From: Candidatus Siliceabacter maunaloa | Lineage (GTDB): Bacteria > Actinomycetota > Thermoleophilia > Solirubrobacterales > Solirubrobacteraceae | Reading direction: 5' to 3' | NCBI GenBank assembly: GCA_024330185.1 | Contig: JANDLV010000004.1 | Span: 1-64,000 of the forward strand | Length of the DNA: 64,000 nt | Part shown: positions 27,614 through 37,300 of the stretch, one piece after another | Position numbering within the stretch: the first letter of the stretch is position 1 | Layout: each line of letters starts with the position of its first letter | Notes under the pieces: generated by a model | What the model saw: the letters and a program-made list of their open reading frames with translations, nothing else | Database searches by the model: none | Told to the model about the DNA's origin: nothing | Made by a program: the position numbers and the translations under genes

Positions 27614-27655
27614 GAGCCACCCTTCCGGGGGTCCGCACCCGCGATAGGGTGGCTC
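27614..27655. promoter_or_regulatory. Inverted repeat at the first LuxR promoter
   Basis: GAGCCACCCT (27614-27623) and AGGGTGGCTC (27646-27655) are perfect reverse complements 22 nt apart. The right arm overlaps the likely -10 (TAGGGT, 27645-27650), so binding there would block transcription of the LuxR gene. A terminator for the upstream gene is the alternative. Confidence 0.55.
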
Positions 27656-27660
27656 ATGCC

Positions 27661-30600
27661 ATGACCACCACACGAGCTGGGGATCTCGCGACGGTCCCGC
27701 CGGCCGGGCAGCTCCCGTACACACTGCTCGAGCGCGAGCAGGAGCTCGACGCTCTGACGCGAGCCCTTGAGCGCTCACGGGCCGGCGACGGGGCGCTGGT
27801 CGTGGTGCGCGGGGAGGGCGGCCTGGGCAAGTCCGACCTCCTGGCCACCGTGGACGAGCAGGCCGGCCAGGCGGGCCTGACCGTCCTCGTGGCGCGCGGG
27901 GACGAACTGGAGCATGGCTTCCCGTTCGGCGTCGCGTTGCAGCTATTCGAAGCGCTCCTGCGCGACGCGGCGCCCGAGCAGCGCGCCGCCCTCCTGGACG
28001 GGGGCGCCGCCATGGCCGGCGCGCTGGTCGATCACATCGCGCCCGCGCCGGCGGTCTGGACGCCGGGCGATCCGGGAACGACCGGCGCAGCGCCGGCCGC
28101 GGAGCACGGGCTGGTCCACGGGCTCTACTGGCTGACGGCCAACCTCGCCGCGGGTGGCCCCGTGGCGCTGCTCGTCGACGACGCACACTGGGCCGATGCC
28201 CAATCGCTGCACTTCCTGGCCTACCTCGGCCAGCGCCTGCAAGGGCTGGGGACCCTGGTCGTGGTTGCCGGGCGGGTCTCGGAGCCGGGCGGCGAGAGCG
28301 GCCTGATCGACCGCCTGGCCGCGGTGCCGGGCGCGGTCACTGTCGCGCCACGGGCCCTCAGCCTCGGGGCCGCTGCGCAGCTGCTCACACGGCCGGGGCA
28401 CGGCGGGCCTCTGCCCGAAGCCCCTTTCGTGACCGCCTGCCACGAGGTCACCGGCGGCAACCCGCTGCTGCTGCGCGAGCTGGCCAAGGCGTTGCGCGAG
28501 GAAGGCGTGGCGCCCACCGCGCAGGGCGCACGGCGCGCGCGTGAGATCGGCCCGGCGCCCGTCTCGCGCTCGCTCACCCTGACGCTCACCCGCCTGGGCG
28601 AGGAGGCCACCCGTGTCGCCCGCTCGGTCGCCGTGCTGGGCGACGACGCCCGGGCCACCCACGTGGCGCGACTGGCCCGCCTGAGCCTGGCCTCGGCGGT
28701 CGAGGCCGCCGACGCGCTGGCGCGCGCCGGGGTCTTCGCCCGCGGGGACCGTGCGGCCTTCGCCCACCCGATCCAGCGTGCCGCCGTCTACGAGGAGCTC
28801 GAGCCGGGCGAGCGCAGCCTGGCCCACCACGCCGCCGCCCGCGTGACGGCCGAGTACGGCGCCGCGCCAGAACGCGTCGCCGCCCACTTGGCGGCCGCCC
28901 AGCCTGCGGGCGACGCCTGGGCGGTCGAGTCACTGGCCACCGCGGCGCGCACCGCCCTGGCCCGGGGGGCCCCGGCGGTCGCGGCCGGCTTCCTGCGTCG
29001 GGCGCTGGGCGAGCCCCCGCCGCCGGAGTCGCGCGCCGGCCTGCTGGTGGAGCTCGGGCAGGCGGAGGCGGCCGGCGGCGATCCAGCCGCCCCCGCTCGA
29101 CTGGAGGAGGCCCTCGTACTGGTGGAGGACCCGGTCGGCCGCGCCCACGTGCGCCGCACCCTGGGTCGTGCGCTGTTCTACCTGGGCCGCGAGCAGGAGG
29201 CCGCGCGCGCCTTCGAGCAGGGTCTCGACGAGGCACCCCCCGGCAGCGACCTGGCCCTGGAGCTCGCGGCCGACTACGCCCAGGCGGGCATGTGGAGCCC
29301 CCCGGTGCGGGCCCGGGCCTTCGCCCGCCTCACGCCTCTGCTGCCCGCCAGCAGCGCCAGCGCCACCACCGCCGCCGGGCGACTCGCGCTGGTCAACGTG
29401 GCCGGGGAGCGCCTGATCTCCGGCGCCGACCGCGACCACGTGGTCGCCCTCGCGCTGCGCGCCTGGGACGGGGGGGCGCTGTTGAGCGGCGGCGTCAACG
29501 CCGACATCACCGTCTTCGCCCTGGCCGGGGTACTCACGTTCGCCGACGCCTTCGAGGCGGCCGGCGAGGTCATCGAGGCCGGGCTGGTCGACACCCAGCG
29601 GCGTGGTGCCGCCCACGCCATGGCCACCATGAGCCTGTGCCGCGCGCGGCTGCGCCGCGCTCTGGGCCGACTCGACGACGCGGCGGTCGACCTCGAGTCG
29701 GTCTTGGAGGCTCACCGCGACGGCTGGGACGTGCAGGCCCCCGGCGCGCTCGGCCTGCTGTCGTTCTGCCACCTGCAGCGCGGCGACCGCGACGCGGCCG
29801 CCCAGGCCCTCGCGGTATCCGCACAGGTCGAGGACGGCTGGCGGCGCGACGTCTCCTACGCCACGTTCCTCGAGCACCGCGGCTGGCTGGCCCTGACCGA
29901 CGGCGACCCGCGCCGCGCGCTGGAGGCGTTTCGCGGCGCCGGACGTCTGTTCGACGCCGCGCAGGCACCCAATCCGTCGCTTTGCGCCTGGCGCGGTGGC
30001 GAGGCGCTCGCCCTGCACGCGCTCGGGGAGGCCGAGCAGGCCTCCGCGCGCGCCCGCGAGGAGGTGGAGCTGGCCCGGCGCTTCGGCGCGCCGCGCCCCC
30101 TGGGCAGCGCCCTTCGCGCCGCCGGCCTGGTGCGCGGCGGCGAGGAGGGCATTGTCCTGCTACACGAGGCCGTCGCGGTGCTGGAGGGCTCGGCCGCAGA
30201 GTTCGACCGCGCCCACGCGCTCGTCGAGCTGGGCGCCGCCCAGCGCCGGGCGGGCCGGCGCACCGACGCCCGCGAGCCGCTGCGCGAGGGCCTCGACCTC
30301 GCCGACCGCTGCTCGGCGAGCCTGCTGGCCGGCCGCGCGCGCGAGGAACTGGCCTCCGCCGGGGCGCGCCCACGACGGGCACGCCTGGCGGGCCCGGACG
30401 CGCTGACCCCCACCGAGCTGCGCGTGGCCGGGATGGCCGTCTCGGGCATGACCAACCGCGAGATCGCCCGTGAGCTGTTCGTGACCATCAAGGCGGTGCA
30501 GTGGCACCTGGGAAACGCGTACCGCAAGCTCGGGGTCAAGGGCCGCGAGGGGCTGGCCGGGGCCCTCGGCGACGGGATGTCGTCAGCGGACGACGAGTGA
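27661..30600 (+). CDS. LAL-type LuxR family ATP-binding regulator
   Basis: A 979-residue large ATP-binding LuxR regulator. N-terminal STAND/AAA-type NTPase: Walker A GEGGLGKS (residues 51-58) and Walker B region VALLVDDAHWAD (about 166-177), then a long TPR-like alpha-helical middle (about 350-900). The C-terminal LuxR HTH (about 912-975) reads LTPTELRVAGMAVSGMTNREIARELFVTIKAVQWHLGNAYRKLGV. Such proteins act as ligand-triggered activators. ATG at 27661 is preferred because TAGGGT lies 10 nt upstream; an in-frame GTG at 27649 lies inside the inverted repeat. The linked SDR fragment downstream is convergent. Target genes are unknown. Confidence 0.9.
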   Translation: MTTTRAGDLATVPPAGQLPYTLLEREQELDALTRALERSRAGDGALVVVRGEGGLGKSDLLATVDEQAGQAGLTVLVARGDELEHGFPFGVALQLFEALLRDAAPEQRAALLDGGAAMAGALVDHIAPAPAVWTPGDPGTTGAAPAAEHGLVHGLYWLTANLAAGGPVALLVDDAHWADAQSLHFLAYLGQRLQGLGTLVVVAGRVSEPGGESGLIDRLAAVPGAVTVAPRALSLGAAAQLLTRPGHGGPLPEAPFVTACHEVTGGNPLLLRELAKALREEGVAPTAQGARRAREIGPAPVSRSLTLTLTRLGEEATRVARSVAVLGDDARATHVARLARLSLASAVEAADALARAGVFARGDRAAFAHPIQRAAVYEELEPGERSLAHHAAARVTAEYGAAPERVAAHLAAAQPAGDAWAVESLATAARTALARGAPAVAAGFLRRALGEPPPPESRAGLLVELGQAEAAGGDPAAPARLEEALVLVEDPVGRAHVRRTLGRALFYLGREQEAARAFEQGLDEAPPGSDLALELAADYAQAGMWSPPVRARAFARLTPLLPASSASATTAAGRLALVNVAGERLISGADRDHVVALALRAWDGGALLSGGVNADITVFALAGVLTFADAFEAAGEVIEAGLVDTQRRGAAHAMATMSLCRARLRRALGRLDDAAVDLESVLEAHRDGWDVQAPGALGLLSFCHLQRGDRDAAAQALAVSAQVEDGWRRDVSYATFLEHRGWLALTDGDPRRALEAFRGAGRLFDAAQAPNPSLCAWRGGEALALHALGEAEQASARAREEVELARRFGAPRPLGSALRAAGLVRGGEEGIVLLHEAVAVLEGSAAEFDRAHALVELGAAQRRAGRRTDAREPLREGLDLADRCSASLLAGRAREELASAGARPRRARLAGPDALTPTELRVAGMAVSGMTNREIARELFVTIKAVQWHLGNAYRKLGVKGREGLAGALGDGMSSADDE

Positions 30601-30921
30601 GCGCGCGCTGAGATCCCAGGCGACCTCGCGCCGGTCGTCGCGCATCGCGCTCGTGACGGCGTCCACGAGCCCCGCCGGATCGATCGGATCGGGCAGCTCG
30701 GGCGCGGACCCGGCCAGCGGGCGATCGGAGAACCCCGTCGCCGTGTGCGGGGGACGCACGTCGATCACGTTGATGCCCGTCCGGCGTCGCTCGTGTCGCA
30801 GGCCAGCGAGGTAGGCCGAGAGAGCGGCCTTCGCTGCTGAGTAGTGCGCCAGGCCCGCAGTGGGAAGCTCGCGACGATTCGCCGAGAAGCCCACGACCAC
30901 CCCGTTAGGGGATGTCCGACC
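30583..30921 (-). pseudogene. Short-chain dehydrogenase C-terminal fragment
   Basis: About 110 codons match the C-terminal half of an SDR: GVVVGFSANRRELPTAG, the active-site Y-x-x-x-K in AHYSAAKAALSAYLAGLR, then GINVIDVRPPHTATGF. The N-terminal Rossmann half, including the G-x-x-x-G-x-G motif and the NAG segment, is absent; upstream of about 30921 the frame is Arg/Pro-rich and unrelated. It therefore appears to be a truncated gene. It overlaps the 3' end of the LuxR gene by 18 nt on the other strand. Confidence 0.7.
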
Positions 30922-31130
30922 GCAGCCGCCAGGGCGGCGGCACGGACGCCGCGGCTCATCCGGGGCCGCGGCGGCGCGTGCTTCACATGGGTCGCGGCCG
31001 AATCCAACGACGTTGCCCCCGTCCGTGCGGACACGGCACCGGCCGTGCCGTCAGCATGCAGGATCCGAGGCCCAGAACCATCGGTCAGGTGACGTATCTT
31101 GGGTAGCGGCCCGTAGCCCCGGCGCCGGCC
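30922..31130. other. Spacer holding one LuxR-flanking direct repeat
   Basis: No gene seen. The right part contains a 36-nt sequence (31065-31100) that recurs at 34310, beyond the next LuxR gene. Confidence 0.5.
31065..31100 (+). repeat. Direct repeat flanking the second LuxR gene, copy A
   Basis: Shares about 35 nt with 34310-34344, with one gap and three mismatches. The common part includes CCATCGGTCA and TGACGTATCTT. The centre GTCAGGTGAC is a near-palindrome. Confidence 0.7.
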
Positions 31131-34025
31131 TCAGGTCGCGCCGCGCGCGACCTGGGCCACCAGCTCCAGCCGCGAGCGTAGCTCGAGCTTGGCCAGGATG
31201 TGCGACACGTGGGTGGACACCGTGCGCCGCGAGATCACCAGGCGGTCGGCGACCTGCGGGTTGGACAGGCCCTCGGCCACGAGCGCGGCCACGCGCGCCT
31301 CGCTGGGGGTCAACGCCTCCCAGCCCGTCTGCCCCCGCGCCCGCGGGCCGCGCCGGCCACGGCGGACCCCGGCGGCCCGCAGCGCCGCGTGCGCGCGCGC
31401 CGCGTCGCGGACGGCCCCGAGGCGCTCGAAGCCGGCCAGCGCCGCATCAGCCCACGCCACGCTCTCGGCGCGCCGGCCAGCCCGAGCCAGCGCGACTGCG
31501 GCCTCCTCCCGGGCCACCGCCGCGTCGTAGGGGCGCGCCGCCGCCCGGTAGGCCTCCGCGGCGGCCACGAGCTCGTCGACCTCCCCGCCGGCCAGGGCAC
31601 GACAGCGCGCGGCCAGCGCCGGCAGGCTGGCGACCTGCGGGTTGAGGTCGGCAAGCTCACGCACACCGTCGGCGACCTGGGCGCCGCGCTCGCGTTCGCC
31701 GGTCGTCGCCAGCAGCCGGGCCAGGTCGACGGCGAAGGTGCCGCGCTCCTGGACGATGCCCGCCGCCTCGCAGCGCTCCCACGCCTCCCAGAGCAGCTCG
31801 ACCGCCTCCTGGTGCCGGCCCGCGCCCTCGACCAGGAGGGCACGAGCCCACTCCAGCCAGCCGATCCGCCACTCCACCGCCCCCGCCGCGCGCTGGCGCT
31901 GGGCCTCGGCGACGAGCGCCTCGGCCGCCGTGAGCTCGTCGCGACGGGTGAGGATGACGGCCCGGGCGGCGAACCCCTCGAGCTGCCAGCCCATGCCGGC
32001 GTCCTGCGCCGCCAACGCGGCCGTCTCCCACTCGGCCAGGGCGTCGTCCCACGCCCCAGACCCGAGCAGCGCGTAGGCGCCGAAGTAGTGGACGTACACG
32101 AGCGCGATCTGCATGCCCAGCCGCTGGTAGGCCCGTCGACCGCGTTCGACGGCGTCGCGCGCGGCATCGAAGCGATCGAGGTCGGCGAGCGCCAGGGAGT
32201 GGTGCAGATCGGGCTCGGGCGCGTGGTTGGCCCGCGTGCCGTCGCACTGCGCGAGGTGCGCCGCCACGGCGATCTGGCGCTCCTGCTCCGTGAAGTCCCC
32301 GCGGATGCCCGCGACAAGCCCGAGATGCGTGCGGGCCATGATCTCGGCGACGGCCTGGCCGCTGCGCTCGCCGGCCGCCCTCGCCTGCTCGGCCGTCGCC
32401 ACAGCCTCATCCAGGTCGCGGGCGTGCAGCGGCCCGAGCGACAGCCACGCCAACGCATGGGCGCGCTCGCCCTCCGACACGCCCGGGGACTGCACCGCGC
32501 GCTGAGCCTCGCCGAGGGCCTCCGGCAGACGGCCCTGGACCATCAGCGAGTGGGTCAGGGCCAGGCGCAGCGCGCCCTCGCCCTCCGGGTAGAGCACCTC
32601 CTCGAGCGCCCGGCGGCACAGCTCCACGCCCTCCTCCCGCCGGCCGGCGGCCATAAGGTCGAAGGCCAGCTCGGCGACCAACCACCCCCGGGCGGGATCG
32701 GCCGGATCGGCCAGCGCGAGCGCCGCCTGCAGCAGCTCGACCGCAACCTCCGGGCCGCGCAGCGCCGCCTCGCGGGCCGCCCGCGCCAGCCACGCCACCG
32801 CCTCGCGGTCCCCGGGCTGCGCACCTCGCACGAGGTGCTCGGCGACGCGCCCGGCGGCCGCCCCCGCCGCGGCCAGGGCGCGGCCCAGGTCGAGATGCAG
32901 GCCGGCCCGGGTGGCCGCCGGCAGCTCCTGGTAGAGCGCCTGGCGCACGAGGTCGTGACGGAAGGTGAGCCGATCGCCGCGCTCAGCGACGACTCCCTCC
33001 GCCACCGCCGGGCGCAGCGAGCGCCACAGCGCCGCCGCCGGGCGCCCGGACAGCAGTGAGAGGTCCGTCACCGAGAACGACACGCCGAGCACGGAGGCCA
33101 GCTCCAACGCCTCCACGGTCTCACCGTCCAGGAAGCGCAGCCGGGAGAGCACGGCCCCGGCGAGCGAGGGGGGCGTCGCGAGGTGGGGCACCTCTGCGCC
33201 GCCTTCGCGGCTCACCTCCAGAGCACCGTCGGCCGCCAAGGCCCGGACCAGCTCGGAGATGAACAGGGGATTGCCGCCGCAGCCGGCGACCTGCGCCCAT
33301 AGGTTGGGTCCCGGGGGGCCGCCGGCCAGGCGACCGGCCAGCGCCTGGGCGGCCGCATCGTCCAGGGGGTCGAGCGCGATGCGCCGCGCCCCGCGCCCGG
33401 TGGTGACGGCGATGAGGCGGTTCAGCGCGGGGCCACGCTGTGAGAGGCGGACGGTGGCCACCACGGCGAGCGGGAGGCCGGGCGCCTCGCGCGCCAGGCG
33501 ACCGAGGAAGCCCAGCGACGGCGGGTCGGCCCACTGCACGTCCTCCAGCGCGATGAGCACCGGCGCCCCCGCGCAGGCGTCCTCCGCCACGGCGACGAGC
33601 TGGTCGGCCAGCCACAGCTCACGTTCCGCGCCGCCCATCTCGGGGAGCCCGTTGCCCTCCGCCTCCGGCTCGGCCCGGAGGGCGCGCGCGACCGCGACCC
33701 GGCGCTCGTCGGTCGCATGGCGGGTGATGCCCAGGCAGTCGGCCACCACACCGAAGGACCGGCGGGCCTCGAGCTCGTCGGCCACCGCGACAAGCACCCT
33801 GAAACCCTGCTCCCGGGCCCGCTGCGCGGTCGCCTCGACCAGGCGGGACTTGCCGATCCCGGGCTCTCCCTCGACCCACGCGACGCCGCCGCGACCTGCG
33901 GCGGCGGCCTCGTCGAGTAGCGCGCCCAGGGCCGCCAGCTCCTTTACACGTTCGAACCGGTCGTCGGCCGTCGACGGGAGGTCTACGGGCTGCTCGTCGC
34001 TGCGACGCACGGCGTCGCAGTACAC
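31131..34025 (-). CDS. LAL-type LuxR family ATP-binding regulator
   Basis: A 964-residue large ATP-binding LuxR regulator. Walker A is GEPGIGKS (residues 53-60), Walker B region ALEDVQWADPPSL (about 159-171), followed by a helical, TPR-like middle. The LuxR HTH at the C-terminus (about 897-960) reads LTPSEARVAALVAEGLSNPQVADRLVISRRTVSTHVSHILAKLEL. GTG start at 34025 begins the open frame. It is divergent from lhr. A 30-plus-nt direct repeat lies just past its stop (31065) and before its start (34310), so the gene may have been inserted or duplicated as a cassette. Its ligand and targets are unknown. Confidence 0.9.
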   Translation of the reverse strand: MYCDAVRRSDEQPVDLPSTADDRFERVKELAALGALLDEAAAAGRGGVAWVEGEPGIGKSRLVEATAQRAREQGFRVLVAVADELEARRSFGVVADCLGITRHATDERRVAVARALRAEPEAEGNGLPEMGGAERELWLADQLVAVAEDACAGAPVLIALEDVQWADPPSLGFLGRLAREAPGLPLAVVATVRLSQRGPALNRLIAVTTGRGARRIALDPLDDAAAQALAGRLAGGPPGPNLWAQVAGCGGNPLFISELVRALAADGALEVSREGGAEVPHLATPPSLAGAVLSRLRFLDGETVEALELASVLGVSFSVTDLSLLSGRPAAALWRSLRPAVAEGVVAERGDRLTFRHDLVRQALYQELPAATRAGLHLDLGRALAAAGAAAGRVAEHLVRGAQPGDREAVAWLARAAREAALRGPEVAVELLQAALALADPADPARGWLVAELAFDLMAAGRREEGVELCRRALEEVLYPEGEGALRLALTHSLMVQGRLPEALGEAQRAVQSPGVSEGERAHALAWLSLGPLHARDLDEAVATAEQARAAGERSGQAVAEIMARTHLGLVAGIRGDFTEQERQIAVAAHLAQCDGTRANHAPEPDLHHSLALADLDRFDAARDAVERGRRAYQRLGMQIALVYVHYFGAYALLGSGAWDDALAEWETAALAAQDAGMGWQLEGFAARAVILTRRDELTAAEALVAEAQRQRAAGAVEWRIGWLEWARALLVEGAGRHQEAVELLWEAWERCEAAGIVQERGTFAVDLARLLATTGERERGAQVADGVRELADLNPQVASLPALAARCRALAGGEVDELVAAAEAYRAAARPYDAAVAREEAAVALARAGRRAESVAWADAALAGFERLGAVRDAARAHAALRAAGVRRGRRGPRARGQTGWEALTPSEARVAALVAEGLSNPQVADRLVISRRTVSTHVSHILAKLELRSRLELVAQVARGAT

Positions 34026-34399
34026 CAGAGTCCGGCTATTAGGGCTCCGTCGAGCAGAGGGGGCGGCCTCCCGGCCGCCCGGCCCTGAGCCCGCCGCCCT
34101 CGCCCGACTGGGCGAGCGCCAGCGGCGTCACCAGCAACGCCAGCGCGCAGGCCGACACCACCGGCCATCTCCAGGGCCGCCCACCTCCCCAACCCCCGGA
34201 CCCATCGAACGGATGTTGCACCTGCGACCGGACGACCTCAGTGCCCCAGCGACCTCGATCGGACATCCGGTTTCAATGGCTGGGCACCAACGCGGCAGCG
34301 TGTCGCTCGCCGAGCCCAGAGCCATCGGTCAATTGACGTATCTTTCTCTCCCGCCGCTGCCGCGCCTGGGGCCAGCCTGCGCGCAGGTACCCTGGGAGG
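34026..34399. other. Divergent promoter region of LuxR gene and lhr; possible small secreted-protein remnant
   Basis: A minus-strand frame (34039-34266) contains a signal-peptide-like stretch (VVSACALALLVTPLALAQS) but no recognisable mature protein, so it may be a decayed small secreted gene. The right part carries the direct repeat copy B and TACCCT (34388-34393), the likely -10 of lhr. Confidence 0.4.
34310..34344 (+). repeat. Direct repeat flanking the second LuxR gene, copy B
   Basis: Near-identical to 31065-31100. Its centre GTCAATTGAC is a perfect 10-nt palindrome, and it lies between the LuxR start (34025, minus) and the lhr start (34400, plus), so it may also be an operator. Confidence 0.7.
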
Positions 34400-37300
34400 G
34401 TGAACCGCTCCGATCCGCTGGCCGCCTTCACCCCGACGGTGCGGGAGTGGTTCGGCCGGGCCTTCGCGGGGCCGACGCCCGCCCAGGCCCTTGCGTGGCC
34501 GGCCATCGCCACGGGCGAGCACGTGCTCATCTCCGCGCCCACCGGCTCGGGCAAGACGCTGGCGGCCTTCCTGTGGGGGTTGGATCGCCTCGCGGGTGAC
34601 GTCGACCGCAGGTCGACGCTTGCGGCGACCGAAGGGCGAAACCGGTCTCCGCGCCTCGTCTACGTCTCCCCCCTCAAGGCGCTGGCCTACGACGTGGACC
34701 GCAACCTGCGCGCGCCGCTGCGGGGCATCGGCGCGGACCTGCGCGTGGGCATCCGCACGGGCGACACGCCGCCACGCGAGCGCGAGGCGATGCGCCGCAC
34801 GCCGCCCGACATCCTCATCACCACGCCCGAGTCGCTGTACCTGATGCTGACCTCGCGTGCGCAGAGCATCCTCACGGGGGTCGAGGCGGTGATCATAGAC
34901 GAGGTCCACGCGGTGGCCGCCACCAAGCGTGGCGCCCACCTCGCGCTCACGCTGGAGCGCCTGGCCGACAACGCCGAGGACGACCCGCAGCGCATCGGGC
35001 TCAGCGCCACGCAGAACCCGCTCGAGGAGGTCGGACGCTACCTCGTCGGCCCGCGGCGGCGGTGCCGGATCGTCGACGCCGGGGTGACCAAGGAGCTGGA
35101 CCTGCGCATCCACGTGCCGGTCGAGTCGATGGTCGAGCCCGAGCAGCCCGACGCTGCCGCCGACCCGTTGGACCCCTCCGTGGGCAGGGAGGCCACGCGG
35201 CGCTCCATCTGGCCGGCCATCTATCCCGAGCTGCTGGCCCAGGTCCGCGAGCACCGCTCGACGATCATCTTCGTCAACAACCGCCGGATGGCCGAGCGCC
35301 TCGCCCTGCGCCTCAACGAGCTGGCGGAAACGACCCCGGGGCCCGGCTCCGGCGGCCAGGGAGCGACGGTCTCGTCCTCGGGGCCCCCCGCCTCCGCCAC
35401 TGGCGACATCGCCCGCGCCCACCACGGCTCTCTGGCCCGCGAGGAGCGCACGATCATCGAGGAGCAGCTCAAGGCCGGTGAGCTGCCGTGCCTGGTGGCC
35501 ACGAGCTCACTGGAGCTGGGCATCGACATGGGCGCCGTGGACCTCGTGCTGCAGGTCGAGTCGCCGAAGTCCGTGGCGCGCGGGATCCAGCGCATCGGCC
35601 GCGCGGGCCACAACGTCGGCGACGTCTCCAAGGGGCGGATCTTCCCCAAGTTCCGCGCCGACCTCCTGGAGTGCGCGGTGGTGGTCAAGCTCATGCGCGA
35701 GGGGCGCATCGAGCCGACGGTCGTGCCGCGCAACCCGCTCGACGTGCTCGCCCAGCAGGTCGTGGCCATGGCCGCGGCGCGCGATACCGATGCGGCTCAC
35801 GCCGCTGGCACAGGGGAGGGAGAGCCGCTCGCCGTGGACGACCTCCACGCGCTGGTCACGCGTACGCACTCCTACGCTGAGCTCCCCCGGCCCCTGCTGG
35901 AGAACGTGCTGGACATGCTCGACGGGCGCTATCCCTCGTCCGAGTTCGGCGACCTGCGCCCGCGCATCGTGTGGGACCGCGTCGGGGGCACGATCCGTCC
36001 GCGCAAGGGCGCCCGCCAGCTCGCGGTGACCAACGCCGGCACCATCCCCGACCGCGGGCTGTTCTCCGTCGTGCTGCCCGACGGCCGTCGCGTCGGCGAG
36101 CTGGACGAGGAGATGATCTACGAGGCACGCGCCGGCCAGACGTTCCTGCTGGGGACCTCGTCGTGGCGCATCGAGGAGATCGGCCGCGACCGCGTGGTGG
36201 TCACCCCCGCGCCCGGGGTGCCAGGCGCGGTGCCCTTCTGGCGCGGCGACTCCGTCGGGCGACCCAAGGAGCTGGGCGAGGCCATCGGCGCGTTCAGTCG
36301 CTGGGCGGTGGACGAGACGCCCGAGGCCCTGGCCGAGTCGCACGACCTCGACGAGCGCGCTGCGCGCAACCTCGTGGACTTCCTGCGCGAGCAGCAGGCG
36401 GCCACCGGCGTGGTGCCGTCCGACCGCGCGATCGTGGTGGAGCGCTTCCGCGACGAGATCGGCGACTGGCGCCTGTGCATCCTCAGCCCGTTCGGCGGGC
36501 GCGTGCACGCCGCGTGGTCGCTGGCCCTCAGCGCGCGCATCCGTGACCAGCATGGGCTGGAGAGCGACGCGATCTACAGCGACGACGGGATCATCGTCCA
36601 CCTCCCCGACGCCGACACCAATGCGGCGTTCGCCGCTGGCACAGGTGAGGCTCCCGGCGCGGATCTCGTGCTCGTCGAGCCCGACGAGCTGGAGGATCTC
36701 GTCGTCGCCGAGCTGGGCTCCAGCGCGCTGTTCGGGGCGCGCTTCCGCGAGAACGCGGCCCGCTCGCTGCTCATCCCCCGCGCGTACCCCGGCAGGCGCA
36801 CGCCGCTGTGGCAGCAGCGGCTGAAGGCCCAGAACCTGCTGGAGGTGGCCAAGCGCTACGGCGACTTCCCGGTGATCCTCGAGACCTACCGCGAGTGCCT
36901 GCGCGACGTGCTCGACCTGCCCGGTCTGCACGACTTGCTGACCAAGCTGCACCGCCGCGAGCTGTCGCTGGTCGAGGTCGAGACGCCCACGGCGTCGCCG
37001 TTCGCCTCCTCGCTGCTGTTCGACTACGTCGCGACCTACATGTACGAGGGCGACACGCCCAACGCCGAGCGCCGCGCCGCCGCGCTGTCGCTGGACCGTG
37101 ACCTGCTGCGCGAGCTGCTGGGCCAGGAGGAGCTGCGCGACCTGATCGACCAGGGCGCGCTGGAGCAGGTGGAGGCCGACCTCCAGCACCGCTCCGACCG
37201 CACGCGGGCGGAGACCGCCGACGCGCTGGGCGACGTCCTGCGCCGGGTGGGGGACCTCACGGAGGCCGAGGTGGCCGACCGCGTGATCGACGGCGTCGAC

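Follow-up and report, generated by a model that had tools for sequence, protein, structure and literature searches.

Reading along the locus from left to right within the window (the whole 64,000-nt stretch of DNA that was analysed), we see two large regulator genes of the same architecture, LAL1 (27649–30600, plus strand) and LAL2 (31131–34025, minus strand), each encoding an N-terminal AAA_16 and a C-terminal GerE domain. LAL2, a LuxR-family regulator of 964 amino acids by Pfam and NCBIfam, fits the definition of a LAL-type LuxR regulator (N-terminal AAA_16 ATPase, C-terminal GerE domain, about 900–1000 aa); against the NCBIfam NarL model its GerE domain gives 8e-11, a match that is far below the cut-off of that model. 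Between the two lies the C-terminal remnant of a short-chain dehydrogenase gene (30583–30900, minus strand; Pfam profile positions 137–187 of 195), which is convergent with LAL1, overlaps its 3′ end by 18 nt and has lost the N-terminal two thirds; among the fetched loci it has no homologue except copies of the same place. Beyond LAL2, and divergent from it, the gene for the Lhr helicase starts at 34400 with a GTG codon. The sequence TACCCTGGGAGGGTG is found at 34388–34402 ahead of Lhr, with TATCCTCGGAGGGTG as its counterpart in a same-genus genome (G001), which suggests that the Lhr transcript may be leaderless. The intergenic parts have a GC content of 73% and 72%, compared to 77% for LAL2 and 74–75% on either side.

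A direct repeat on both sides of LAL2

Two copies of a direct repeat, CCGAG(G)CCCAGA(A/G)CCATCGGTCA(GG/AT)TGACGTATCTT, are located on the same (plus) strand, both falling outside the called genes: copy 1 (31065–31100, 36 nt) lies 30 nt beyond the stop of LAL2, and copy 2 (34310–34344, 35 nt) lies 284 nt ahead of the LAL2 start and 55 nt ahead of that of Lhr; were the Lhr transcript leaderless, copy 2 would be centred near −67.5. The copies are separated by three substitutions and one indel (an extra G), with an ungapped core identical at 28 of 31 positions (31070–31100 versus 34314–34344). Our alignment agrees with a sequence-only reading of this DNA, which had described a direct repeat of about 35 nt with three mismatches and one gap, its first copy lying just past the stop of the LuxR gene; that reading also placed the second copy just before the start of the gene, which is correct as to the upstream side, but not as to closeness, the Lhr start being the nearer.

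Searching with the 20-nt core CATCGGTCANNTGACGTATC at up to 3 mismatches, we obtained two matches in the window, where shuffled sequence predicts 0.01, and on this count we reject a chance origin of the pair. Across the genome (3,790,892 bases in 120 contigs) the same search adds one match, with 3 mismatches and on another contig, and there is no third close copy in the bases searched. The many scattered copies by which the earlier reading would have recognised an ordinary dispersed repeat were not found, and a count of two close copies rules that explanation out. An Rfam search of 30500–34500 gave one hit with an E-value of 0.55, far under the gathering score, on which result we reject a structured RNA at the repeats; a scan found no intrinsic terminators at either copy, and the exact repeat pattern has no match in IMG/VR. 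An inverted repeat of 77% (30910–30935 / 34243–34268) is also present, but other inverted repeats in the same GC-rich sequence are at least as strong.

Two of three substitutions between the copies fall at the centre of a dyad

Each copy contains an imperfect dyad of 18 bp, ATCGGTCA-NN-TGACGTAT, the spacer being GG in copy 1 (31080–31097) and AT in copy 2 (34324–34341). The innermost part, GTCA-NN-TGAC, is exact in both, and where NN is AT, in copy 2 only, it becomes a perfect 10-bp palindrome, bearing out the earlier description of a near or perfect palindrome at the centre of each repeat. Read in a 7-2-7 arrangement, the arms TCGGTCA and TGACGTA agree at five of seven positions.

Of the three substitutions that distinguish the copies over their 31 aligned positions, two are exactly the two central bases of the dyad. 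Random placement puts differences on both central bases in 0.6% of cases, and a dyad at least as good together with such a placement arises in 0.035% of shuffles; the dyad score by itself is equalled in 26% of shuffles and is hence not unusual alone. The arms are kept whilst the spacer varies, as in the operator of a dimer, albeit in a set of two copies and with arms that are imperfect (6/8).

Since the substitutions concentrate on the dyad centre, as expected of a dimer operator, we favour an operator reading of the repeats. Both own-genome sites at up to 1 mismatch (2 of 2) flank LAL2, which makes LAL2 the likeliest binder. We infer from these features that the repeats bind protein, and propose that they form an operator pair recognised by a dimeric helix-turn-helix protein, for which LAL2 itself is the most probable candidate; we put the chances of this at about even. 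Counted against LAL2 operators are the distance of copy 2 from the LAL2 start and the position of copy 1, 3′ of the gene. The sequence-only reading had offered two explanations, either a cassette with duplicated ends or a pair of operators bound by the same regulator, and it is the second that better fits two close copies outside genes that differ at the dyad centre.

A segment missing in a same-genus genome

A query of 33400–35400 matched 33 of 41 genomes (our own included) via Lhr, and the DNA upstream of Lhr was compared in 12 relatives, among them G001, the one same-genus genome in the comparison set. There, the counterpart of LAL1 (62% identity) is followed by 22 nt and then by Lhr; the 3.8-kb segment corresponding to 30601–34399, which contains LAL2, the dehydrogenase remnant and both repeats, is missing. 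Judging from the absence of these features in G001, the segment was either gained in our own lineage or lost in G001. In the 12 upstream-of-Lhr stretches we found neither a counterpart of LAL2 (simple gene caller plus BLAST) nor the dyad at up to 2 mismatches, and the best matches to the 31-mer have 10–12 mismatches of 28.

Such a comparison bears on whether the repeats are instead a scar of recombination or insertion, LAL2 having come with or between short direct repeats by way of target duplication, attachment sites or exchange between older copies. As in known insertions of this type, direct repeats bracket a gene within a segment that is absent from a close relative; the match extends past the dyad to 35 nt, and the truncation of the adjacent dehydrogenase gene points to rearrangement. 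However, the repeats sit away from the ends of the segment, by 464 nt and 55 nt, the empty junction in G001 carries no repeat copy (the best match in the stretch has 11 mismatches of 28), the central dinucleotide differs between the copies, and the two called genes of the segment, LAL2 and the dehydrogenase remnant, are not recombinases. In this comparison with one same-genus genome, then, neither repeats at the segment ends nor a copy in the empty site is seen. What stands of the ‘cassette with duplicated ends’ is that LAL2 lies in a segment that G001 lacks; the duplicated ends themselves are unsupported, because the repeats are interior, the empty junction is copy-less and the central bases differ. 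A scar of any of these kinds we regard as unlikely.

Relatives of LAL2 within the class

Among 299 genomes of the class, a close match to the LAL2 GerE domain is found in five besides our own. Full-length relatives of LAL2, at 45–55% identity, are encoded in G209, G223 and G173, and the dyad at up to 2 mismatches is absent from the 13 kb fetched for each, despite a helix in G223 that is nearly identical to that of LAL2; G221 and G176, where the match is confined to the GerE domain, have no such dyad either. The absence beside the three full-length relatives counts against LAL2 as the binder of our repeats. At 3 mismatches, G209 has one dyad directly ahead of its LAL gene, but a TetR gene starts on the opposite side and the dyad may belong to it. 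The best 24-mer match between the 400 nt upstream and the 400 nt downstream of each gene was also compared with the largest value from 10 shuffles. For LAL2 it is 21 against a shuffle maximum of 18. We reject an equivalent repeat pair around the relatives, where the values are 20 against 19 for the G223 gene, a GC-rich, low-complexity match, and 18 against 18 for that of G209, 18 against 20 for G173 and 17 against 17 for G762 (see below).

This G209 dyad, TCGGTC-N4-GACCGA (L147, 4982–4999), between the TetR gene and the divergent LAL2 relative, is probably the TetR operator. Dyads of 18 bp with even spacing suit TetR-type proteins as well, and the repeats could be operators through which another dimeric regulator, of TetR type for example, controls LAL2, Lhr or the lost dehydrogenase. 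Both the G209 dyad and the lack of a dyad at up to 2 mismatches beside the LAL2 relatives speak for this, yet a regulator of other genes would be expected to have further sites elsewhere, whereas LAL2 is flanked by both of the sites found at up to 1 mismatch, and the segment holds no TetR gene; we judge it unlikely. That the repeats are two rightward promoters, copy 2 driving Lhr and copy 1 running antisense to LAL2, is very unlikely: their conserved edges (CCGAG...CCCAGA and TATCTT) do lie about a promoter length apart, ending in TATCTT, and copy 2 does lie just ahead of Lhr, but a scan of either stretch found no sigma-70-type promoter, Lhr has a TACCCT of its own at 34388, immediately ahead of the GTG, in the position where G001 has TATCCT, and the spacer of a promoter need not be conserved.

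Similar sites in distant genomes

Scanned for exact matches to CATCGGTCANNTGACGTATCTT, the GTDB contigs returned four stretches, where about 0.5 would be expected by chance on our arithmetic: two in a Nocardiopsis-titled soil MAG (G762), one in an Anaerolineae MAG (G763) and one in Rhizobium, the last of which (L021, within a long reading frame) is probably a chance match. Counting sites for ATMSGTCANNTGACSKAT at up to 1 mismatch against those for a control, we find 8 versus 0 in G762, 12 versus 1 in G763, and 2 versus 0 in both our own genome and G260.

Six of the eight G762 sites were fetched, and all six have GTCAGCTGACCGATGT followed by TGCAA(C/G/T)TTGCA. Four of them precede genes read as HATPases, of which Pfam confirms three, and one of the remaining two precedes the gene of an NMT1-like protein. 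The recurring element as a whole, GTCAGCTGACCGATGT...TGCAANTTGCA (L055–L059), stands ahead of HATPase_c_2 and other genes at 6/6 fetched sites. The best of 47 matches in G762 to the GerE domain of LAL2 (59%) is itself a LAL protein, co-linear with LAL2 (35% over 954 aa) and with a similar helix (RRTVATHVSHIL, compared to RRTVSTHVSHIL in LAL2). Here, in contrast to G209, G223 and G173, a site is present beside the regulator: a perfect one, 0.66 kb past the stop of the LAL gene, a proximity with a chance of 0.2–0.3% by post-hoc arithmetic. Such proximity favours LAL2 as the binder in our own genome; against this, the DNA in question is the upstream region of a convergent HATPase gene, not that of the LAL gene.

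The G763 MAG has sites within 1 kb of two NarL-type genes, at L130 (1 mismatch) and at L115, the latter having 1 mismatch to TACGTCANNTGACGTA and leaving the symmetric pattern unmatched at up to 2 mismatches. Of 199 Anaerolineae genomes, 5 contain the exact symmetric pattern (G763 is one of them), against 1 for the control, a count that does not show a general Anaerolineae regulon. Two Anaerolineae genomes have a similar palindrome near genes for LysW-like zinc-ribbon and response-regulator proteins (L154, 1501–1518; L115, 2251–2266).

Nearer to home, the 41 near genomes yield, at up to 2 mismatches, four further matches in three other genomes and none for the control. At up to 3 mismatches, 399 class genomes yield eight further matches in seven other genomes against three control matches; these are mostly noise, a possible exception being L010, which lies close to where a GerE-domain gene starts. 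A tighter pattern finds a match in our own genome only across 396 genomes of the phylum.

Discussion

If the repeats are operators of LAL2, the protein would autoregulate its gene by binding the upstream copy 2, and may also touch the divergent Lhr gene from there; it would bind copy 1 ahead of the next minus-strand gene, the short-chain dehydrogenase that is now a remnant and possibly a former target of that copy. Both the dehydrogenase as a target and the direction of control are inferences. A single lineage-specific segment would then carry LAL2 along with both operators. Such an arrangement, in which a LuxR-family gene comes with cis elements of its own, is ordinary in kind. To our knowledge, few LAL proteins have known operators, chiefly in Streptomyces antibiotic clusters, and among the titles of one literature listing none concerned a TACGTCA/TGACGTA operator of a LuxR protein.

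Two known systems invite comparison. The GerE domain of LAL2 resembles that of NarL, and the right half of our dyad, TGACGTA, ends in GTA as does the NarL consensus, from which the inner bases depart. An excerpt of PMC7419079 describes the NarL sites of E. coli as 7-2-7 inverted repeats, that is, inverted 7-base elements with a 2-bp spacer, a layout that our arms and two-base spacer suit. The left half, TCGGTCA, nonetheless departs from the dyad at 2/7 positions, and LAL2 is a LAL, not a response regulator. The Streptomyces LAL/LuxR regulators MilO and PimR use direct repeats, as given in an excerpt of PMC11784345, a point against reading our dyads as LAL2 operators. Their sites, too, are local and few in a genome, next to the LuxR-family gene and to its target, but they consist of short elements repeated directly inside a single promoter, whereas LAL2 has a single dyad on either flank.

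A bolder reading would make LAL2 and its two operators a self-contained module that moves between lineages, and ATCGGTCA-NN-TGACGTATCTT with the helix RRTVxTHVSHIL a conserved protein–DNA pair shared with the Nocardiopsis-titled and Anaerolineae MAGs. We think this rather improbable; were it true, the DNA code of a LAL/NarL subgroup would be readable from genomes alone. Should the repeats prove not to be LAL2 operators, they would amount to an ordinary local duplication. If they are, they would show what DNA a LAL protein of this lineage targets, and would suggest that the regulator brought its switches along.
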